Source: a virus. From it: DNA of 47,934 nucleotides. The stretch covers positions 1 to 47,934 of IMG/VR virus record IMGVR_UViG_3300005293_000005; one strand, given 5' to 3'. Numbering within the stretch: the first letter of the stretch is position 1; each line of letters opens with the position of its first letter. Of the stretch, positions 52-47,934 are shown piece after piece. The notes beneath the pieces were generated by a model. The model worked only from the letters and a program-made list of their open reading frames with translations. It was not told where the DNA came from and did no database searches. Position numbers and translations under genes: made by a program.

Positions 52-369
52 ATGAAACTCTCTATCTATCAGCGTACGGACGACGGCGAAATCAGTTATC
101 ACGGAGCCCAAAGCTTCAATAGTCCCGCCGAATTTTTCAAAAAAGTGTTTGTTAAAACCACCCTGCCTCCGGAAGAGATGACGGTTATCGACCCAAAGTG
201 GCCCGACCGATGCGTAACTTGGAGAGGGCGGTGGGGTTACGCAGGTGGCCCGGCTAAGCTCAAGCTACGTCAAATCAACCTCACCGATGAGCAGGTTGAA
301 CTGGCTAAGTCCATAGGCGACGGGAACATCTCTGAGGGGGTCCGGCTTGCCCTAGCCCTTTTCGAATAG
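52..369 (+). CDS. Hypothetical protein, 105 aa, first (+) gene
   Basis: I do not recognise the family. The product is a soluble protein with no signal peptide or membrane segment. Its C-terminal third (about residues 75-105, starting INLTDEQVELAKSIGDGN) reads like a short helical DNA-binding or dimerisation segment of the kind seen in CopG-like proteins, but this is weak. The start is supported by AAGGAG six bases upstream of the ATG. The gene stands alone: a 472-base repeat region lies upstream across the contig ends and a bidirectional terminator follows directly. Its position beside the repeat array makes a role in regulation or replication initiation conceivable, but this is only inference from location. 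Confidence 0.75.
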   Translation: MKLSIYQRTDDGEISYHGAQSFNSPAEFFKKVFVKTTLPPEEMTVIDPKWPDRCVTWRGRWGYAGGPAKLKLRQINLTDEQVELAKSIGDGNISEGVRLALALFE

Positions 370-401: not shown

Positions 402-3068
402 TTAAAGGGTTACCAGTCTCCAAACGATCCTGCGCATTCGGTCCTGGACACCGACAAACTTCCGACCATTTAGCGCCCTGCCCTTCACGTCCCTGAGGAA
501 CCAGCCAAGGCGTTGAGGGTTAGCCCGACCGTGTTTGTCGGTGTTGATAGCCTCCATAGCCTCAAGCCACAAAGCGCAACGGACCGGGTCGACGGGCTCA
601 TGTAGAATTTGATGCGTTGTCCGACCGTCATCCCCAAAGCGTTCCTCCCATGCACTCATCAGCATCTCAAGCTTCTGCACTTCCGGGTCGGCGCTCTGCT
701 GGGCCTGCATCTCCTCAATCGGATCACCCCAGCCCAGCCACACGACGGCGCCGCGCACGAGGCCATTCCACTCCTCGAACGACGCATAGCCGCCCATCTT
801 CAAACGGGTCGCCTCACGGCCGTACGCCGAATAGGTGATGAGCAGGTCCACCAGGTCACTACGCAGGTCGGCTACCGTCGAACGGATGAGTGCCACCGGG
901 TCAAAGGCATGCTTGCGCAGCTCCGGCGCCTCATCACTGCACAGGTTGATCGGCAGGATGCGGCGCACGGCGTCACCACTGATGCCCACGTTGTTGCCGT
1001 TGAGAACCCACATGGCCCGGTTAGGCAGCTTGAGCATTACCGACTTGCCCAAGATCCGGCTCTTGTAGAAAGGCGACGTCATGGCCATACAGAAGTCACT
1101 GGAATCCTTGAGGTAGCCCTTGACGTTGTCGAACATGATGGCCAGGGGGCCCTCATCGAGGATCGACGTCAGTTGCTTGGCCTGCTCCTGCCCGTCACTG
1201 CTGATAGCCGAGATGCTGATATCGGAACCGGTCAGCGAGAGGATCGAGTTACTGAGCAGGGTTTTACCCGTGCCGTAGGTCTGCGCATTGACGATGAACG
1301 CCGGCGCGGTCGGCAGGGCCGGGCGACACACGGCGGTAAACATCGCCGCCAGGCACACAGCACGGGCCGACTGATCGGCAAACGGGAACTCTGCAAACGG
1401 TGCCCACACTCGGCCCAGCGCATCCGCCATGCCCTGCGTGTCCAGCAACCGCGGCGCGCGCTCGGCGCCCTCTAGCACATAAAGGCCGGTGCGTTCGTCA
1501 AGGCCCTTCGCCGCAGCGACGGAACCGTCAGCCCGCACCACCGGCAGCGGAACGGCCGCCTTGATCTCGCCGACGCCTGGGAACCACTCGCGCTCTACTA
1601 CGCGGCGGGTAAGGCCCTCTGGAATCTTCGCCGGCGCGCCCTTGCCACCCTTCTCCACCCGCATAAAGGTCTCGATCTCAGACGACAGGGTGTTCAGGGT
1701 GTGCTTGAGGATGCGCCCGTTCGGCAGCACGCTTACCAACTGCTGATTGCGCTGGAACAGGTTAGGGAACGACGGCAATGCCTTAATGATCGCGCGCTCG
1801 GCGCTGACCAGCTTTCCGTCGTCAACCTCAATGCGCTCGCACCCGGCGGCGATCTGATCGGCGGTAAGGCGTCCAACAGTCGCCCAGGTTGTGCGGGTTG
1901 CGCAGTTGTGAGCGATCCAGGCGCGCAGCTCAGGCGTATCGACTACTGCCGGATGCATGCACAGGATCTCCAGCACCACCTGGCAGTTGCCCCCCGCTTT
2001 CCAGGCCACGTCGTCGAGTAGGCTGCCCACATCCCCGGTATTCCAACGGTCCGACCACTCTCGGTTGTTGCTGTTATGCAGCTCGGCCAGTAACTCAACC
2101 GGATCGGAGCTGCCCTTGAAAAGCTCAACCGGCGTGGTTGTCCACTCCAAGGCGCGCGGCGGCGCGGAAGTCAGCACCGGCGGGAAGGTATTGAAGGCGG
2201 CAGCGGCGTCAACTGGCACACGCTGGGCGGCGGTCATACCGGCCTCATGCAACAGGCTCCCTAGGCCGCGGGCGCCAGGCTTGAAGCTATCGTGATCGTT
2301 CCACTTGTCGTCAAACACCCCGTCGTCATGCTTGTGCGAGCGCTCCGACCACTGGCGGGCCAGCTCATAGCCAACACCCTCAGCGCCTTCGGTGTGATCT
2401 TCCCAATGCTTGATCGAGGCAATCGCCGGCTCCCAACTCATATAGTCATCGGGATCGCGGTTGGCCAGCGCCTGCACGATACGCTCGACGTCGTTGAGGT
2501 CCCCGGCATAGTCGGTAGCCTGCCGGGCAACCCGCGGAGCGCGCACCTGCACAAGCCATTGCGGTATTGGGCTCGCCTTCTCCTGACCGGGCATGACGCC
2601 ATCGGCCCAGGCATAGAGCCCGCCATTTGGGTGGCGGGACGGCGGCAGGACCGCATAGCCGTTGTATTTGCCATCAATGCCCTTGCCGCCTACGAGTGCC
2701 GCGGGCTGGCTGTTGTAAGTCGCGTCATCGCGCTGCGGAGCGGCGTAATAGAGGTGAAAGCCCCCACCAGGTGAGTCGACGCGCAGATAGCTATCGATCT
2801 CGCCGTGCTTGGCCTGCAGCGCTGCGTAATCCTGCGTGCCGCCGTTGCGCGGGTCAACGTCAAACACATACAGGCCGCCGGCAGATGGCCGGGTGCCGAT
2901 ATTTGCGTCGGGATTAGCCGACCACCACGCATCAATTTGCGCCAGGTCAGTAGTCGCCTCGGTTGAGCCCTTCGAGCCCTTAAAGGGGGATTTGGTACCG
3001 GAGACAAGAGGAAAGACATGCCAGCCCAAGCCAGCGTAATAACGGGCCCACTGGTGCATAGGGCTCAT
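402..3068 (-). CDS. Prim-pol/helicase fusion (bifunctional primase-polymerase with C-terminal AAA+/SF3-like ATPase), 888 aa
   Basis: Predicted replicative primase-helicase. Residues about 5-175 match the bifunctional primase/polymerase N-terminal family (PF09250-type): PDANIG near 53, metal-binding VFDVDP with D70 and D72, and GGGFHLYY near 101-108 with H105. Residues about 185-285 resemble a primase C-terminal PriCT_2 domain. The C-terminal half is a P-loop ATPase with Walker A AQTYGTGKT (about 595-603), Walker B IMFDNV (about 644-649) and a downstream sensor/arginine segment WVLNGNN...RRI. I chose the ATG at 3068, which overlaps the stop of the upstream gene as ATGA and follows GAAGGTGAAG; an in-frame start at 3110 would overlap far more. 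It is the last gene of the leftward early operon. It probably primes and unwinds for the family A polymerase at 18467-20827. Confidence 0.9.
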   Translation of the reverse strand: MSPMHQWARYYAGLGWHVFPLVSGTKSPFKGSKGSTEATTDLAQIDAWWSANPDANIGTRPSAGGLYVFDVDPRNGGTQDYAALQAKHGEIDSYLRVDSPGGGFHLYYAAPQRDDATYNSQPAALVGGKGIDGKYNGYAVLPPSRHPNGGLYAWADGVMPGQEKASPIPQWLVQVRAPRVARQATDYAGDLNDVERIVQALANRDPDDYMSWEPAIASIKHWEDHTEGAEGVGYELARQWSERSHKHDDGVFDDKWNDHDSFKPGARGLGSLLHEAGMTAAQRVPVDAAAAFNTFPPVLTSAPPRALEWTTTPVELFKGSSDPVELLAELHNSNNREWSDRWNTGDVGSLLDDVAWKAGGNCQVVLEILCMHPAVVDTPELRAWIAHNCATRTTWATVGRLTADQIAAGCERIEVDDGKLVSAERAIIKALPSFPNLFQRNQQLVSVLPNGRILKHTLNTLSSEIETFMRVEKGGKGAPAKIPEGLTRRVVEREWFPGVGEIKAAVPLPVVRADGSVAAAKGLDERTGLYVLEGAERAPRLLDTQGMADALGRVWAPFAEFPFADQSARAVCLAAMFTAVCRPALPTAPAFIVNAQTYGTGKTLLSNSILSLTGSDISISAISSDGQEQAKQLTSILDEGPLAIMFDNVKGYLKDSSDFCMAMTSPFYKSRILGKSVMLKLPNRAMWVLNGNNVGISGDAVRRILPINLCSDEAPELRKHAFDPVALIRSTVADLRSDLVDLLITYSAYGREATRLKMGGYASFEEWNGLVRGAVVWLGWGDPIEEMQAQQSADPEVQKLEMLMSAWEERFGDDGRTTHQILHEPVDPVRCALWLEAMEAINTDKHGRANPQRLGWFLRDVKGRALNGRKFVGVQDRMRRIVWRLVTL

Positions 3069-3337
3069 TGCTTCACCTTCACGCCGGCCGCCTCGATAGC
3101 TTGACGGCATTGCTTGACGCCATATTTCCAGAGCTGGTCCCAGCTCTCGCCGTCGTCTGAATCAGCTTTCGGGAGCTCAATCACCAGCGTCCAGCGCGAT
3201 GCCTGCCAGCCAAGCCAGTAGCGCTGGACGTGCTCATTGCGGTAATCGCCGTTGTTGTATTTCTCATGTGGAGGATTCCCAGCCACCACCTTGCGGTGCC
3301 ACAGTTCAAACTCTTCACGCATCTTGTCGTTGCTCAT
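3065..3337 (-). CDS. Hypothetical phage protein, 90 aa
   Basis: Small acidic/basic protein starting MSNDKMREEFELWH, with a central YWLGWQASRWT stretch. This layout (R-x-E-F-E-x-W at the start, then W-x-G-W-Q-A-S-R) is common in small early proteins of Gammaproteobacteria phages and has no assigned function. The ATG at 3337 overlaps the stop of the HTH gene as ATGA, and the stop overlaps the prim-pol start as ATGA, so translation is probably coupled on both sides. Confidence 0.75.
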   Translation of the reverse strand: MSNDKMREEFELWHRKVVAGNPPHEKYNNGDYRNEHVQRYWLGWQASRWTLVIELPKADSDDGESWDQLWKYGVKQCRQAIEAAGVKVKQ

Positions 3338-9643: not shown

Positions 9644-9827
9644 GCCTGATTACAAAATCGCTGATAGCGAAGTCGGCGTAGGTAATGCAGCGCGAGTGCC
9701 AGCTAACCCATTCATCGCCGAACATCTCGACGGCGCTCGCCAGGTCGGGCAATCCGCAGTCCTCGCTCGGGCCGGTCGGCAGCTTGGCCGGGTGCTGCGG
9801 GTCGAAGGGGGTGACAAATATGGTCAT
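9633..9827 (-). CDS. Hypothetical protein, 64 aa
   Basis: Small acidic protein, MTIFVTPFDPQHPAKLPTGP..., ending YADFAISDFVIRLEP. No recognised fold. ATGA overlap with the methyltransferase stop indicates translational coupling. Confidence 0.65.
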   Translation of the reverse strand: MTIFVTPFDPQHPAKLPTGPSEDCGLPDLASAVEMFGDEWVSWHSRCITYADFAISDFVIRLEP

Positions 9828-10534
9828 GGCATAGCTCCATAGATGCGCTCGCAGGCGATCACAAAATAGTCAGGGTCACGCTCAATGCCGATGAACTTAC
9901 GGCCAGTGTTCACACACGCTACGCCAGTTGTGCCGCTGCCCATGGTGTTATCAAGAACCGTGTCGCCTTCGTTGGTGTAGGTCCGGATCAGGTATTCCAT
10001 GAGGGCGACGGGTTTTTGGGTGGGGTGCACTGTTGAGCCTTCTGAAGCGATATCCAGCACGTCACGCGGCCAGTTGGTCCATTCTTGAACGTAATCTGCA
10101 GAGCTGCGGCCTCCGTAATTGTCACTGTTGCCTCCTTGCTTAGTGACGGTTCCTTTGGCAATAAGCCCTTGTGCGTTATAAATCGTCGGCGCGGTCGAGA
10201 AAACCAGTACCTGTTCGTGTTTGCGCACGGGCATTTTCTTGGCATTCAGAACGCCAGTGATCTTACTCTTGACCCAAACCCATTCGTATTTGAAGTCCTT
10301 CAGGTTACTGGCTACGAGCACGCTGCTGAATGGCTGCGCTGCGGTCAACACGATGGCAGCACCTTTACGGCATACGCGGCGGTACTCCGCCCAAAGCGCC
10401 TCGAACGGGATAACCGCGTCCCACTTATTCTGTGTAGTGCCATACGGCAAATCGCAAAGCACCATATCGACCGACCCATCAGGGATTGAACGCATCTCCT
10501 CCAGGCAATCGCCGTGCATCAAATTAGGCTCCAT
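9824..10534 (-). CDS. DNA methyltransferase (N4/N6 family, PF01555-type), 236 aa
   Basis: Transfers methyl from SAM to adenine N6 or cytosine N4. Catalytic motif IV is DLPY (residues 28-31), and the SAM-binding motif comes near the end as DNTMGSGTTG (195-204) followed by FIGIERD. This order (catalytic first, SAM-binding last) is that of beta-class enzymes. VHPTQKP near 169-175 is also typical of the family. I chose the ATG at 10534, where similarity begins; it overlaps the upstream gene by 11 bases and the ribosome site is weak. There is no restriction endonuclease beside it, so it is an orphan, probably protecting phage DNA or timing replication. Confidence 0.9.
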   Translation of the reverse strand: MEPNLMHGDCLEEMRSIPDGSVDMVLCDLPYGTTQNKWDAVIPFEALWAEYRRVCRKGAAIVLTAAQPFSSVLVASNLKDFKYEWVWVKSKITGVLNAKKMPVRKHEQVLVFSTAPTIYNAQGLIAKGTVTKQGGNSDNYGGRSSADYVQEWTNWPRDVLDIASEGSTVHPTQKPVALMEYLIRTYTNEGDTVLDNTMGSGTTGVACVNTGRKFIGIERDPDYFVIACERIYGAMP

Positions 10535-10742
10535 GCTTGTCCCGCTCCAGATAGTGGTTAGCGTACGCCTGTGAGGTATGGAATAGCGCGCCGCAGTAGC
10601 AGCGAAAGCCCGTATAGCTCTTGCGGTCCTTGGCGCGGTGCGTGCGGTCACAGAACGGGCACTGATAGCCCTTTACGACGCGCACCTCGATAGGCATGTG
10701 ATTGCCGGCGATCTCGCCCCAAGTTGGGCCCAGGAGGCTCAT
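10524..10742 (-). CDS. Zinc-finger protein, 72 aa
   Basis: Contains CPFC (about residues 28-31), CYC (about 48-50) and a downstream H-x-S-x-A-Y-A-N-H segment, making a C2-type knuckle followed by a His-rich helix. Likely binds one or two zinc ions and nucleic acid or protein. It lies between the HD hydrolase and the methyltransferase, with an ATGA overlap on one side and an 11-base overlap on the other. Confidence 0.7.
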   Translation of the reverse strand: MSLLGPTWGEIAGNHMPIEVRVVKGYQCPFCDRTHRAKDRKSYTGFRCYCGALFHTSQAYANHYLERDKHGA

Positions 10743-22910: not shown

Positions 22911-23203
22911 GCGTGCGCCCTCTTGGGTACAATTTTAGCGAGATTGCCGCGACACAGTACTACGATGCCGAATACTGCGCCCCATCCGCCGGCGTTAAGC
23001 CACTGGCCGCCGAGCGTCCGCGGTTCGATGGCACCGCTCCAAAGAGCGACCCCTAAACCGGCGTTGGACATTGCAAGAAGGGCGGCTAGTGCCGAAACGC
23101 CGAAACGGTATCGGGCGCCTTTAGGGTGATAGGACAACAGCAGGGCGGCGATACCCAAGTGGAAAAAGATGCGAACGCCTGTGAGTATGCTGTCAAACTC
23201 CAT
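22907..23203 (-). CDS. Putative holin, 98 aa, three TM segments
   Basis: MEFDSILTGVRIFFHLGIAA starts the first hydrophobic helix; others lie at about 38-57 and 69-85, and the C-terminus is basic (KIVPKRAHA). The YHPKGARYRFG motif between helices 1 and 2 is typical of a 3-TM phage holin family. I chose the ATG at 23203 since the frame upstream adds an unlikely extension. ATGA overlap with the endolysin start supports a role in endolysin release. Confidence 0.75.
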   Translation of the reverse strand: MEFDSILTGVRIFFHLGIAALLLSYHPKGARYRFGVSALAALLAMSNAGLGVALWSGAIEPRTLGGQWLNAGGWGAVFGIVVLCRGNLAKIVPKRAHA

Positions 23204-23582
23204 CGCTATCGCCTCGCCGCTTAAAAAGTGGAATGCGATCAAGAATAGATTCGAGCCAAGGTGGCAGTGGGCCATTCTTGTCGATCACATAGTAGAACGC
23301 CGTGAAGATCACAGCGGCCAGTGCCGAAAAGAATATAGACACAAGCATGGCCTTTTCGTTCCAGTCTTCACCGGGGACACGGCCATACCAGAAGACACCG
23401 CAAGCGTATCCGGTACCGAACGAGAAAGGGATAAGTTTAAGGCGCTGCCAGCCGGCGGTAGCCATAGGCGCGAACAGGAGAAAGCAACAGCCTACGGCGG
23501 CGCCAGTAGCGGCCCAAGGGTGGACCGCCATGGCGACCATGCAAAAGAGTGCGGTGGCTTCCCGGGTACACTGGTCGAACAT
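23193..23582 (-). CDS. Membrane protein of the lysis cassette, possible holin/antiholin, 129 aa
   Basis: Four hydrophobic stretches (about residues 12-28, 30-45, 55-70 and 88-107) and a basic C-terminus (RIPLFKRRGDSDG). AGGGG lies eight bases before the ATG at 23582. It is the first gene of the lysis cassette and overlaps the 3-TM holin by 11 bases, an arrangement common for paired holin genes. Which of the two forms the lethal holes cannot be told from sequence. Confidence 0.7.
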   Translation of the reverse strand: MFDQCTREATALFCMVAMAVHPWAATGAAVGCCFLLFAPMATAGWQRLKLIPFSFGTGYACGVFWYGRVPGEDWNEKAMLVSIFFSALAAVIFTAFYYVIDKNGPLPPWLESILDRIPLFKRRGDSDGV

Positions 23583-23633
23583 CGCGGCGCCCCTAGAGGT
23601 CAATCAAAGATGCCGAACAGTGTACCACGGGTT

Positions 23634-45424: not shown

Positions 45425-46705
45425 CTAGCGCCTTTTGAGCAGAATGCCCAGCATCGAGCCTTTAGCCTTCATGACTTTCTCGACCGCATAGCGCAACGCA
45501 TCGATGTAGTGGTTGAATTTATCGACGATGATCGGCAGCACTTCACCGGTTAGGCGGTCAACCTTGTAGCTGTACTTGAGCAGCTCCTCTTGGGTTTTAG
45601 GGCAGGCAGGATGCACGATGATCCGATAGGTTTTTAGGTGATCAAGGCCATCCTCTACGCTGCCTGGGCCCTTGATTGCCCCCTCGATGCGCGGCAAGTA
45701 GTCGTCCTTGTTGAGGTTGTTAGGCCCCTTGGCGCGCGCCAGGTGGGCGATAGACTCGGGCCGCGCGCTATCTGCGATGATCGAGTGCTTATCGATGCCC
45801 GGTATCCGGTCCTTGAGGAATTTAGCCGTGTCGTCGAGCTCCAGGCCGATACGGCCAGCCTCCGCGTCAATGTACAGCTCCTGCTCGTCAGGGCTGATCC
45901 AACAGCGCACCGCGGCGGTCGGGTCGAGCGCAAAGCCGAAGTCGAGGCCATGGTAAGGCCCCAGCCACGTATCGTCTGGAAACCGCACGCCCTCCTCCCA
46001 ATTGCGGCCGAGGATCGATGCCTTGGATTTGCGCAGGTAGGCGCCGAGCCAGATCCACGCATAGGTTTCAGGATCGAGGCTGGCCTTTTGAGCCTGGCGC
46101 AACACCTCAAGGCCTGCAGGAAACCAGGGGTTGTCCAGGTAGTTCATCTCGGCGACAAGGGCGGTCGGGTACATCGGCGCCTTCTCGGCCGATCCCCTGA
46201 AGCGCATGTCGACCGGCGACCCTTCAAGCTTAGGGTTCCAAACGACCCACATCTCGGAATCCGGCTCGCGCAGTACCGTCGCCTCAAGGGCTAGCCATGC
46301 GTCCTCACTAACGTCCTCCGCCTCCTCGACGATCGTTAGCCCGACCTTTGCCGTCGACTTGACACCGTTCAGGTTGGCGTAAAGGCCCTTGAAAAGGAAT
46401 TCGGTCGGGTTGATCTTGCTGCGCAGATAGTCTTTGCCGACGTCATAGGCGTTCTTGAGCCACTCCTCGGACTCAATAGCCGCCTTGAGCTCAGCGTGGA
46501 ATGACTCTTTGATCGACGCCTGTATCTCCCGCACGCAAAGGATGCGCAATGGGTAGACGACGCCCCACACCGCCGCCATCTTGGCAAATGACATGGACTT
46601 GCCCGAGCCCCGACCGCCATGAGCCGCTCGATACTGCACCGACCCCCTGGCAGGCGCAAAGATCGGTAGCAGCTTTGGCGGCAGTGCGACCGTAGCGTTA
46701 CTCAT
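45425..46705 (-). CDS. terL: Terminase large subunit (Terminase_3 family), 426 aa
   Basis: DNA packaging motor with ATPase and nuclease. Walker A is GGRGSGKS (30-37) and Walker B is TIVEEAED (about 124-131). The C-terminal RNase H-like nuclease has GLDFGFALDPTA (first acid), IIADSARPES (second) and KFNHYIDALRYAVE (third acid near the C-terminus). This is the Terminase_3-type layout, usually linked to headful or cos packaging; which applies cannot be decided here. The start overlaps the small subunit gene by 8 bases. Confidence 0.92.
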   Translation of the reverse strand: MSNATVALPPKLLPIFAPARGSVQYRAAHGGRGSGKSMSFAKMAAVWGVVYPLRILCVREIQASIKESFHAELKAAIESEEWLKNAYDVGKDYLRSKINPTEFLFKGLYANLNGVKSTAKVGLTIVEEAEDVSEDAWLALEATVLREPDSEMWVVWNPKLEGSPVDMRFRGSAEKAPMYPTALVAEMNYLDNPWFPAGLEVLRQAQKASLDPETYAWIWLGAYLRKSKASILGRNWEEGVRFPDDTWLGPYHGLDFGFALDPTAAVRCWISPDEQELYIDAEAGRIGLELDDTAKFLKDRIPGIDKHSIIADSARPESIAHLARAKGPNNLNKDDYLPRIEGAIKGPGSVEDGLDHLKTYRIIVHPACPKTQEELLKYSYKVDRLTGEVLPIIVDKFNHYIDALRYAVEKVMKAKGSMLGILLKRR

Positions 46706-47462
46706 CGGCTTTAACCGGCAGCTCCTGGGCCACCAGGGTGATGCTAGTCGGCAATGCGGCCAATGGGCTGCCGTTGGCGCCGGTTAGCTCCTTGCGGTCG
46801 ATCTGGTAGCCGCACAGCTGGGCATAGAACGTACGCGCCTGCTGCTGGTCGTGCATGAGCACCTCGATATTGCCGTTGCGGTCAACTTTGGTTCCCTTGT
46901 AGAGCGCACGGCCGGCCTCCGACAGGTCCCGGGTATCGGTCACAATGGTGACCTTGCGCCCCTCACCCATGCACCGGGGGCAATCGGGGTGTGGATCGCG
47001 CGTCTGGTCGAAACCCATGCCGCCGGCCCAGTCCGGCAGCTGCACCTCGACGCGCTTGCCCTTGTCGTTGATACGGTAGCCGTTCTCGCCTTCCTCGATA
47101 GCTTTCTCGAACTCATGCTCTTTCCACTGGTAGCCGAAGCCCTCGCCGTGGCAATAGCGGCAGCACCGGGCCTCGATGCGCGCCAGCTCGTTAGGGTCAG
47201 CCGTGGCGATCAGCCAGGTGCGGTGCTTGAGCTCCTCAGCGCTGACATAGAACGACTTCAAGCGCTCGGCCTTGCGGGCCTGCGCAGTCTCGTAGAAGGC
47301 AGGCTTTAGGTGTGGCTGCTTGAACCAGCTATAGGCCACCGTGCGGGCGGTCTGTCGGCTATAGCCCGCCGCTAGGGCGCTGTTGTAGGGGTCCAGGGTC
47401 TCCTCGTAACGCTTGATCAGCTCTTGCTCTTTAGCCGTCAATTCTTCAAATCTGTCGGCCAT
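46698..47462 (-). CDS. terS: Terminase small subunit with zinc-binding motifs, 254 aa
   Basis: Residues about 5-75 form a small-terminase DNA-binding domain (LTAKEQELIKRYEETLDPYN, ALAAGYSRQTARTVAYSWF). The middle contains two DnaJ-type C-x-x-C-x-G-x-G knuckles, CRYCHGEG (about 101-108) and CPRCMGEG (about 162-169), likely forming one zinc site. The C-terminal region probably contacts TerL. The ATG at 47462 follows AGGAG. It faces the large repeat region, where its recognition site could lie. Confidence 0.85.
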   Translation of the reverse strand: MADRFEELTAKEQELIKRYEETLDPYNSALAAGYSRQTARTVAYSWFKQPHLKPAFYETAQARKAERLKSFYVSAEELKHRTWLIATADPNELARIEARCCRYCHGEGFGYQWKEHEFEKAIEEGENGYRINDKGKRVEVQLPDWAGGMGFDQTRDPHPDCPRCMGEGRKVTIVTDTRDLSEAGRALYKGTKVDRNGNIEVLMHDQQQARTFYAQLCGYQIDRKELTGANGSPLAALPTSITLVAQELPVKADE

Positions 47463-47522
47463 GGCCGGGGCTCCTATTCGCCTGTAATTACCGTGAATAT
47501 ACCATTCTTATCAACGCTGAGC

Positions 47523-47554
47523 CTGCTGAGTATCGTTTTTAGCATACTCAGCAG
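47523..47554. repeat. Perfect hairpin, left outer repeat
   Basis: 11-bp perfect stem CTGCTGAGTAT / ATACTCAGCAG around a 10-base loop (CGTTTTTAGC). Bases 47525-47556 are also an exact 32-base inverted copy of 47774-47805. Confidence 0.9.
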
Positions 47555-47560
47555 CTACAG

Positions 47561-47583
47561 GCCACGGAATACGCGGGCTCCAG
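47561..47583. repeat. Direct repeat D, left copy
   Basis: GCCACG, 8 variable bases, GGGCTCCAG. The same 23-base layout recurs at 47753-47775 in the same orientation, although the repeats flanking it are inverted. Confidence 0.8.
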
Positions 47584-47593
47584 GTTTTTTAAG

Positions 47594-47621
47594 GCCGTTT
47601 TGCTGAGTATTGCTGAGTATG
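47594..47621. repeat. Inner inverted repeat, left arm
   Basis: Contains two tandem TGCTGAGTAT units preceded by CCGTTT. It is the reverse complement of 47721-47747 except for one extra T. Confidence 0.9.
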
Positions 47622-47720
47622 TTTTGCTCAGCTGCCGGGCGGCGCGCCAAAACGGCCTATATTACTGACAACCTATATAATATATCCCTTATTATTATAT
47701 TCTCTACTACTATTAGAAAA

Positions 47721-47747
47721 CATACTCAGCATACTCAGCAAAACGGC
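47721..47747. repeat. Inner inverted repeat, right arm
   Basis: Two tandem ATACTCAGC units followed by AAAACGGC. Pairs with 47594-47621 across the AT-rich core. Confidence 0.9.
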
Positions 47748-47752
47748 TGCAA

Positions 47753-47775
47753 GCCACGTATCATAAGGGCTCCAG
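47753..47775. repeat. Direct repeat D, right copy
   Basis: GCCACG, 8 variable bases, GGGCTCCAG; same orientation and length as 47561-47583. Confidence 0.8.
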
Positions 47776-47805
47776 CTGCTGAGTATGCTAAAAACGATAC
47801 TCAGC
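47774..47805. repeat. Hairpin, right outer repeat
   Basis: Exact inverted copy of 47525-47556. Contains a 9-bp stem GCTGAGTAT / ATACTCAGC around the loop GCTAAAAACG, which is the reverse complement of the left loop. Confidence 0.9.
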
Positions 47806-47892
47806 GTTTCGGGCTTAGATACTCAGCATACTCCCGCACTTGATAATTTCAGCAAATAAACGCTGCGCTCATAATACAAAAATACTATCGAC

Positions 47893-47934
47893 CTATAAAT
47901 TTAAAATGCTATATTAATACTACTCATAATTTAA
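47893..47934. repeat. Terminal direct repeat, right copy
   Basis: Identical to bases 1-42; see that entry. Joining the two copies gives a circle of about 47,892 bp. Confidence 0.9.

Follow-up and report, generated by a model that had tools for sequence, protein, structure and literature searches.

The alpha protein of the satellite phage P4 is a primase-helicase fusion that is associated with iterons in ori and crr. In phage satellites with the pri-rep-ori organisation, the origin, whose function has been tested, contains two iteron sets flanking an AT-rich region and is located 3′ of pri-rep (PMC6092414). According to the same work, this organisation is shared by no other known replicon. In Pseudomonas aeruginosa, a second autonomously replicating chromosomal element is mentioned in PMC4403523, where Yee and Smith 1990 and Jiang 2006 are cited for it.

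The repeat element described here is carried by the contig of a 47.9-kb phage that possesses its own terS and terL; the window is the whole stretch of DNA analysed (47,934 bases). The first 42 bases of the window are identical to its last 42; the assembled genome is therefore a circle, in which the element runs on across the junction to position 1. In this circle it has terS on one side and the 3′ end of a prim-pol/helicase gene on the other. The features of the region are the following:

46698 to 47462, minus strand: terminase small subunit gene (terS, PF03592), adjoining the element
47524 to 47553: left outer iteron pair, with TGCTGAGTAT on the plus strand at 47524-47533 and an inverted copy on the minus strand at 47544-47553, starts 20 bp apart; an equivalent pair is present in related phages
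47555 to 47583, minus strand: left dyad block, CTGGAGCCC-GCGTATTCCGT-GGCCTGTAG
47601 to 47620, plus strand: left inner iterons, two tandem copies of TGCTGAGTAT, 10 bp apart
47621 to 47721: core, GC-rich at about 47630-47655 and then AT-rich at about 47656-47720 (23% GC), a candidate unwinding element
47722 to 47740, minus strand: right inner iterons, two tandem copies
47747 to 47775, minus strand: right dyad block, CTGGAGCCC-TTATGATACGT-GGCTTGCAG
47777 to 47806: right outer iteron pair, plus strand at 47777-47786 and minus strand at 47797-47806
47819 to 47827, minus strand: ninth, extra iteron; the relatives L011 and L014 likewise have an extra copy
52 to 369, plus strand: open reading frame of 105 aa between the element and the end of the prim-pol gene
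402 to 3110, minus strand: prim-pol/helicase fusion (Prim-Pol PF09250, PriCT_2, Walker GTGKT in the alignment), its 3′ end facing the element; proposed initiator
402 to 668, minus strand: C-terminal domain of the prim-pol (88 aa, predicted to form four helices and a beta hairpin, pLDDT 93.6), the proposed iteron-binding domain

The sequence GCTGAGTAT occurs nine times in the 47,934 bases, always within 47525-47827, while 0.28 copies are expected and none of 100 shuffles contained more than two. The heptamer TGAGTAT is found 11 times in the whole window, nine of them inside the element. An earlier note, made from the letters of this DNA, had described nested inverted repeats built from nine heptamers, an AT-rich core and an extra copy on the right, and all of these were found in place; the outer arms that it delimited (47525-47556 and 47774-47805) are exact reverse complements over 32 bases. 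The inner arms (47594-47621 and 47721-47747) are inverted repeats as well, differing by one inserted base. Few 65-bp stretches of the genome are as AT-rich as the core, and no DnaA box similar to TTATCCACA was seen on reading positions 47500-47934.

Ten contigs related to this phage were retrieved with TerS, eight of which (L006, L007 and L009-L014) were compared; L005 and L008 end shortly before terS and thus lack the region wholly or for the most part. The eight relatives show the same layout at the same place before terS, each lineage having its own repeat of 8-11 bp. The repeat unit is TGCTGAGTAT in the window, TGCCGAGTAT in L011, TGCAGGGGAT in L014, TGCATAGGAT in both L010 and L013, TGCAGGAGAT in L007, TGACAGGGAT in L006, TGCGACAT in L012, and of the GCCCGGCAAA type in L009. 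The order kept is an outer inverted pair, a block, a right-facing tandem inner pair, the core, a left-facing tandem inner pair, a block, and outer copies. L010-L014 show this order most clearly, and it is kept in part in L006, L007 and L009; no dyad was found in L007. The spacing of the inner arrays is conserved at about 98-110 bp in the window and its relatives. The best 7-mer is present in 8-11 copies in five of the eight relatives, where shuffles reach a maximum of 4-5, and the signal is weaker in L006, L007 and L009 (4-5 copies). As read from these contigs, the architecture is held while the sequence of the repeat turns over, all copies together. The lack of conservation in related phages that the earlier note had considered as evidence against its proposal was not observed: the repeat sequence changes, but the layout persists.

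In seven of the eight relatives the end of the prim-pol gene adjoins the element and runs straight into it, with no intervening open reading frame. The product of the 52-369 frame had been suggested as a protein that might bind the repeats; searches with it gave no relative and the gene is missing at this place in the other phages. The nearest named relative by prim-pol is phage TPWB-08 (about 49%), which is outside the related-phage group and has neither dyad nor iteron array beside its prim-pol. The DNA at 23001-23628 of the window is 77% identical to the TPWB-08 holin region, and a DNA methyltransferase gene (N6_N4_Mtase) is located at 9824-10651 on the minus strand.

The exchanges observed among the relatives indicate which protein the repeats accompany. 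The C-terminal 90 residues of the prim-pol diverge faster than the remainder of the protein in most pairs. For instance, L006 and L007 share TerS proteins that are 98% identical and prim-pol bodies that are 89% identical, but their C-terminal domains are only 56% identical and their iterons are different. Conversely, the TerS proteins of L010 and L013 are 59% identical whereas their C-terminal domains are 100% identical and their iteron is the same. Therefore, the repeat follows the C-terminal domain of the prim-pol and not TerS, and this domain is likely to be the iteron binder, judging from such co-segregation. The recognition code is not obvious, since the C-terminal domains of L011 and L014 are 84% alike and yet their repeat units differ at three of 10 positions. 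The predicted fold suggests a winged helix, a reading kept as putative because the search of the domain fold against PDB structures gave no significant match. The prim-pol profile matched no solved structure among the PDB sequences, and a prim-pol search of genome contigs gave no relatives.

The 23-base block located between outer and inner arms had been read by the earlier note as GCCACG-N8-GGGCTCCAG, repeated on both sides in direct, not inverted, orientation. The block is indeed present on both sides in direct orientation; however, the contrast with the inverted arms carries little information because the block is itself an imperfect palindrome. It is a separate element, CTGnARGCC-N11-GGCYTnCAG, with half-sites 20 bp apart, and is called the dyad below. 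Its presence in Pseudomonas plasmid origins and chromosomes had been overlooked by the note. Two models were used: R1, a mixed model, and R2, a sequence-only model for which 30 Pseudomonas sequences of the livF-ydfG locus were used, phages and plasmids being excluded. The two window blocks are the two best loci of R2 in the window, the right one being the best match (E=1.3e-6; 40.1 bits with R1) and the left one the other (E=0.0042; 33.2 bits with R1). R2 also recovers most of the plasmid and phage dyad sites. At E<=0.001, R1 has a match in 64 of 99 Pseudomonas genomes (97 of 99 at E<=0.05) and in one of 184 other genomes drawn from the same class, a contrast that is approximate because the two scans did not score equal numbers of candidates. 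Rfam contains no family matching the dyad, and no description of it was found among the papers that could be searched.

DNA pattern and similarity searches located the dyad in intergenic positions of Pseudomonas phages (Uliginvirus and others), prophages, one chromosome, and plasmids. In IncP-7-type plasmids (pCAR1, P. amygdali p2, pCC1524 and NZ_CP135972) the dyad occupies the par-repA intergenic region, at oriV; in the three of these whose sequence was read, the order is AT-rich DNA, dyad, RepA iterons, and then a DnaA box. In pQBR55 the dyad adjoins iterons in the opposite orientation. The combination also recurs in unrelated phages with different replication proteins. L048 carries the dyad beside a Prim-Pol/DUF5906 gene, whose helicase part is unlike that of the window, together with TGTGTAAGG repeats; L182 combines two dyads and CCGGAACA repeats with a TOPRIM primase; and Idiomarinaceae phage 1N2-2 (L180) has a dyad, a TOPRIM/AAA_25 protein and TGTACC repeats. 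The pattern matches in L049, L051 and L053-L056 look coding or due to chance and were rejected.

Other sites were recorded in the course of these searches. At L186:4960-5230, nested GGTAATATT-type repeats lie between two dyads, with a third palindrome in the core, an arrangement much like that of the window; no replication gene was found among the neighbouring genes examined. Klebsiella phage NPat (Webervirus) shows intergenic TCTTACC repeats around an AT-rich stretch, with a weak dyad match (L178:1150-1620), a region that may be where this T1-like phage starts its replication. In L142, L153 and L070 a dyad is flanked by perfect TGCGCAAGAAGTTGCGCA palindromes, the one in L142 being upstream of a chromosomal gene that reads like 2-oxoadipate dioxygenase.

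On Pseudomonas chromosomes, where gene names were assigned by reading translations, the dyad recurs at several loci. The distance to dnaA is about 0.63-0.67 Mb for the livF-ydfG locus (five genomes) and about 0.4-0.5 Mb for the etfB-gbcA locus (two genomes), and DnaA boxes are present at both. A further site is in the gap-mfd interval. The livF-ydfG intergenic region (L075 and L082-L111) is conserved; besides the dyad it contains a TTTTTTGATCAG motif and DnaA boxes, and it might serve as a second origin or as a locus of DnaA titration or reactivation. At etfB-gbcA (L149, L151, L154 and L218-L247), L151 has two scored dyads separated by about 180 bp, and two aligned dyad positions can be read across L218-L247. 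A conserved dyad is also present upstream of a cspA-type cold shock gene in many Pseudomonas genomes (L188-L217). The dnaA-proximal oriC has no dyad and, for this reason, the name oriC element was dropped.

The element is very probably the replication origin of the phage, an activity that we infer from its arrangement. The earlier note had proposed an origin, and this is the reading best supported by the position 3′ of the prim-pol, by the architecture and by the tracking of the C-terminal domain. Composition skew does not mark it clearly: GC skew, which had been put forward as an origin marker, lends no support, since it has its minimum near 18.2 kb and does not turn at the element, and the turn of AT skew at about 47.7 kb is confounded with gene direction. 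Other points against the proposal are the lack of a significant fold match for the C-terminal domain, the lack of a dyad and of an iteron array beside the TPWB-08 prim-pol, the lack of a dyad in L007, and the different units of L011 and L014. With considerable confidence, the complete proposal is that of an origin of a tailed phage of about 47.9 kb in which the C-terminus of the prim-pol binds the iterons, the dyad being a further element related to the host. In this scheme, the 10-bp iterons would be bound by the C-terminal domain of the prim-pol/helicase; two helicase rings would be assembled by the outer inverted pairs together with the inner tandem arrays, which face each other at a distance of about 110 bp; the AT-rich core would melt, and helicase and primase would then copy outward. 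The dyad between the outer and inner arrays may dock a host-related factor.

TerS proteins often bind repeats close to their own gene, and the element adjoins terS, so that the element might instead be a pac or cos site, at which TerS would bind to start packaging. Such a site would be expected to accompany TerS, but in the two exchanges described above (L006/L007 and L010/L013) it does not co-vary with this protein and it is the prim-pol end of the region that the repeats track, which argues against packaging; moreover, dyads recur in plasmids, which do no packaging. A packaging site, which the earlier note had listed as an alternative, is thus weakened and appears quite improbable. It is no easier to regard the element as an operator cluster on which a phage regulator would control terS and neighbouring genes. 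The element is intergenic, its inverted pairs are one or two helical turns apart, and initiators often repress nearby promoters too; however, operators seldom consist of nested symmetrical arrays that flank an AT-rich core at a conserved spacing, the region has no conserved regulator gene (52-369 is absent from relatives) and the repeat tracks the C-terminus of a replicative protein. This makes a purely regulatory array hardly probable. Finally, the 42-base terminal overlap of the contig is close to the element, which could suggest an artefact of assembly at that end, or mere chance, but eight independent contigs share the layout and no shuffle reaches nine copies. The relatives refute this explanation, whose probability is negligible.

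A different question, compatible with the origin reading, is whether the dyad acts as a single-strand hairpin, such as a primosome loading site, or as a protein site on duplex DNA. The livF-ydfG arms show mild covariation (the paired fraction was reached in 43 of 5000 shuffles), their mismatches are G.T in 26 cases and A.C in four, and in 50 mixed sequences there are 26 double changes versus 10.2 in shuffles. Nevertheless, at etfB-gbcA (two copies) and cspA, which were recovered by flanking homology, the dyad is kept while its arms lack covariation and G.T is not favoured; position 4 of the dyad is usually mismatched, and single instances fold weakly. Because the arms at these two further loci do not covary, the hairpin was demoted to an unlikely option and a duplex protein site is the more careful description. 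A dimeric Pseudomonas protein probably binds the dyad and assists in building or positioning the origin complex. A broader proposal, plausible though tentative, is that an undescribed sequence-specific Pseudomonas protein binds the dyad at chromosomal DnaA-box loci, and that unrelated plasmids and phages, with RepA, prim-pol or TOPRIM initiators, each incorporated its site into their origins independently, as a common element for docking to the host, while their own iterons turned over freely.

If so, Pseudomonas replicons would combine a fast-changing private key (the iteron and the initiator C-terminus) with a slow-changing element shared with the host chromosome, an account of what allows replicons to function in Pseudomonas that can be tested. 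Through the shared dyad it could be possible to identify a new replication or nucleoid factor and to recognise origins in phages and plasmids that lack annotation, and the dyad could account for some of the host range of Pseudomonas plasmids. In the phage series, sites and binding domains come naturally in pairs, which suits the study of how origin specificity evolves.

With respect to known systems, the element resembles, by analogy, the pri-rep-ori of phage satellites in having two sets of iterons on either side of an AT-rich region. As in SaPI/PICI, the origin would be directly 3′ of the primase-initiator gene (adjacent in relatives, with the 105-aa open reading frame intervening in the window) and several alternative iteron sequences exist (PMC6092414). 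Unlike those satellites, the carrier is a full-size phage with its own terminase, and the window element has, in addition, outer inverted pairs and dyad blocks. The prim-pol is, like P4 alpha, a primase-helicase fusion with proposed iteron binding through its C-terminal domain, but its N-terminus is an archaeo-eukaryotic Prim-Pol, and one bipartite symmetrical element takes the place of the separate ori and crr. The oriV of Rep-type iteron plasmids adjoins a plasmid Rep gene, whereas none lies beside the window element. The IncP-7 oriV of pCAR1 also has a dyad block adjoining iterons and AT-rich DNA; however, it has a RepA initiator, longer RepA iterons of the CGACTACAGATTCCGGCT type, a DnaA box and a single dyad, while the window has two dyads and no obvious DnaA box. 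The second P. aeruginosa element cited in PMC4403523 is, like the livF-ydfG and etfB-gbcA dyad loci, a chromosomal DnaA-box region outside dnaA. The new part of the window element is the recurrent dyad.
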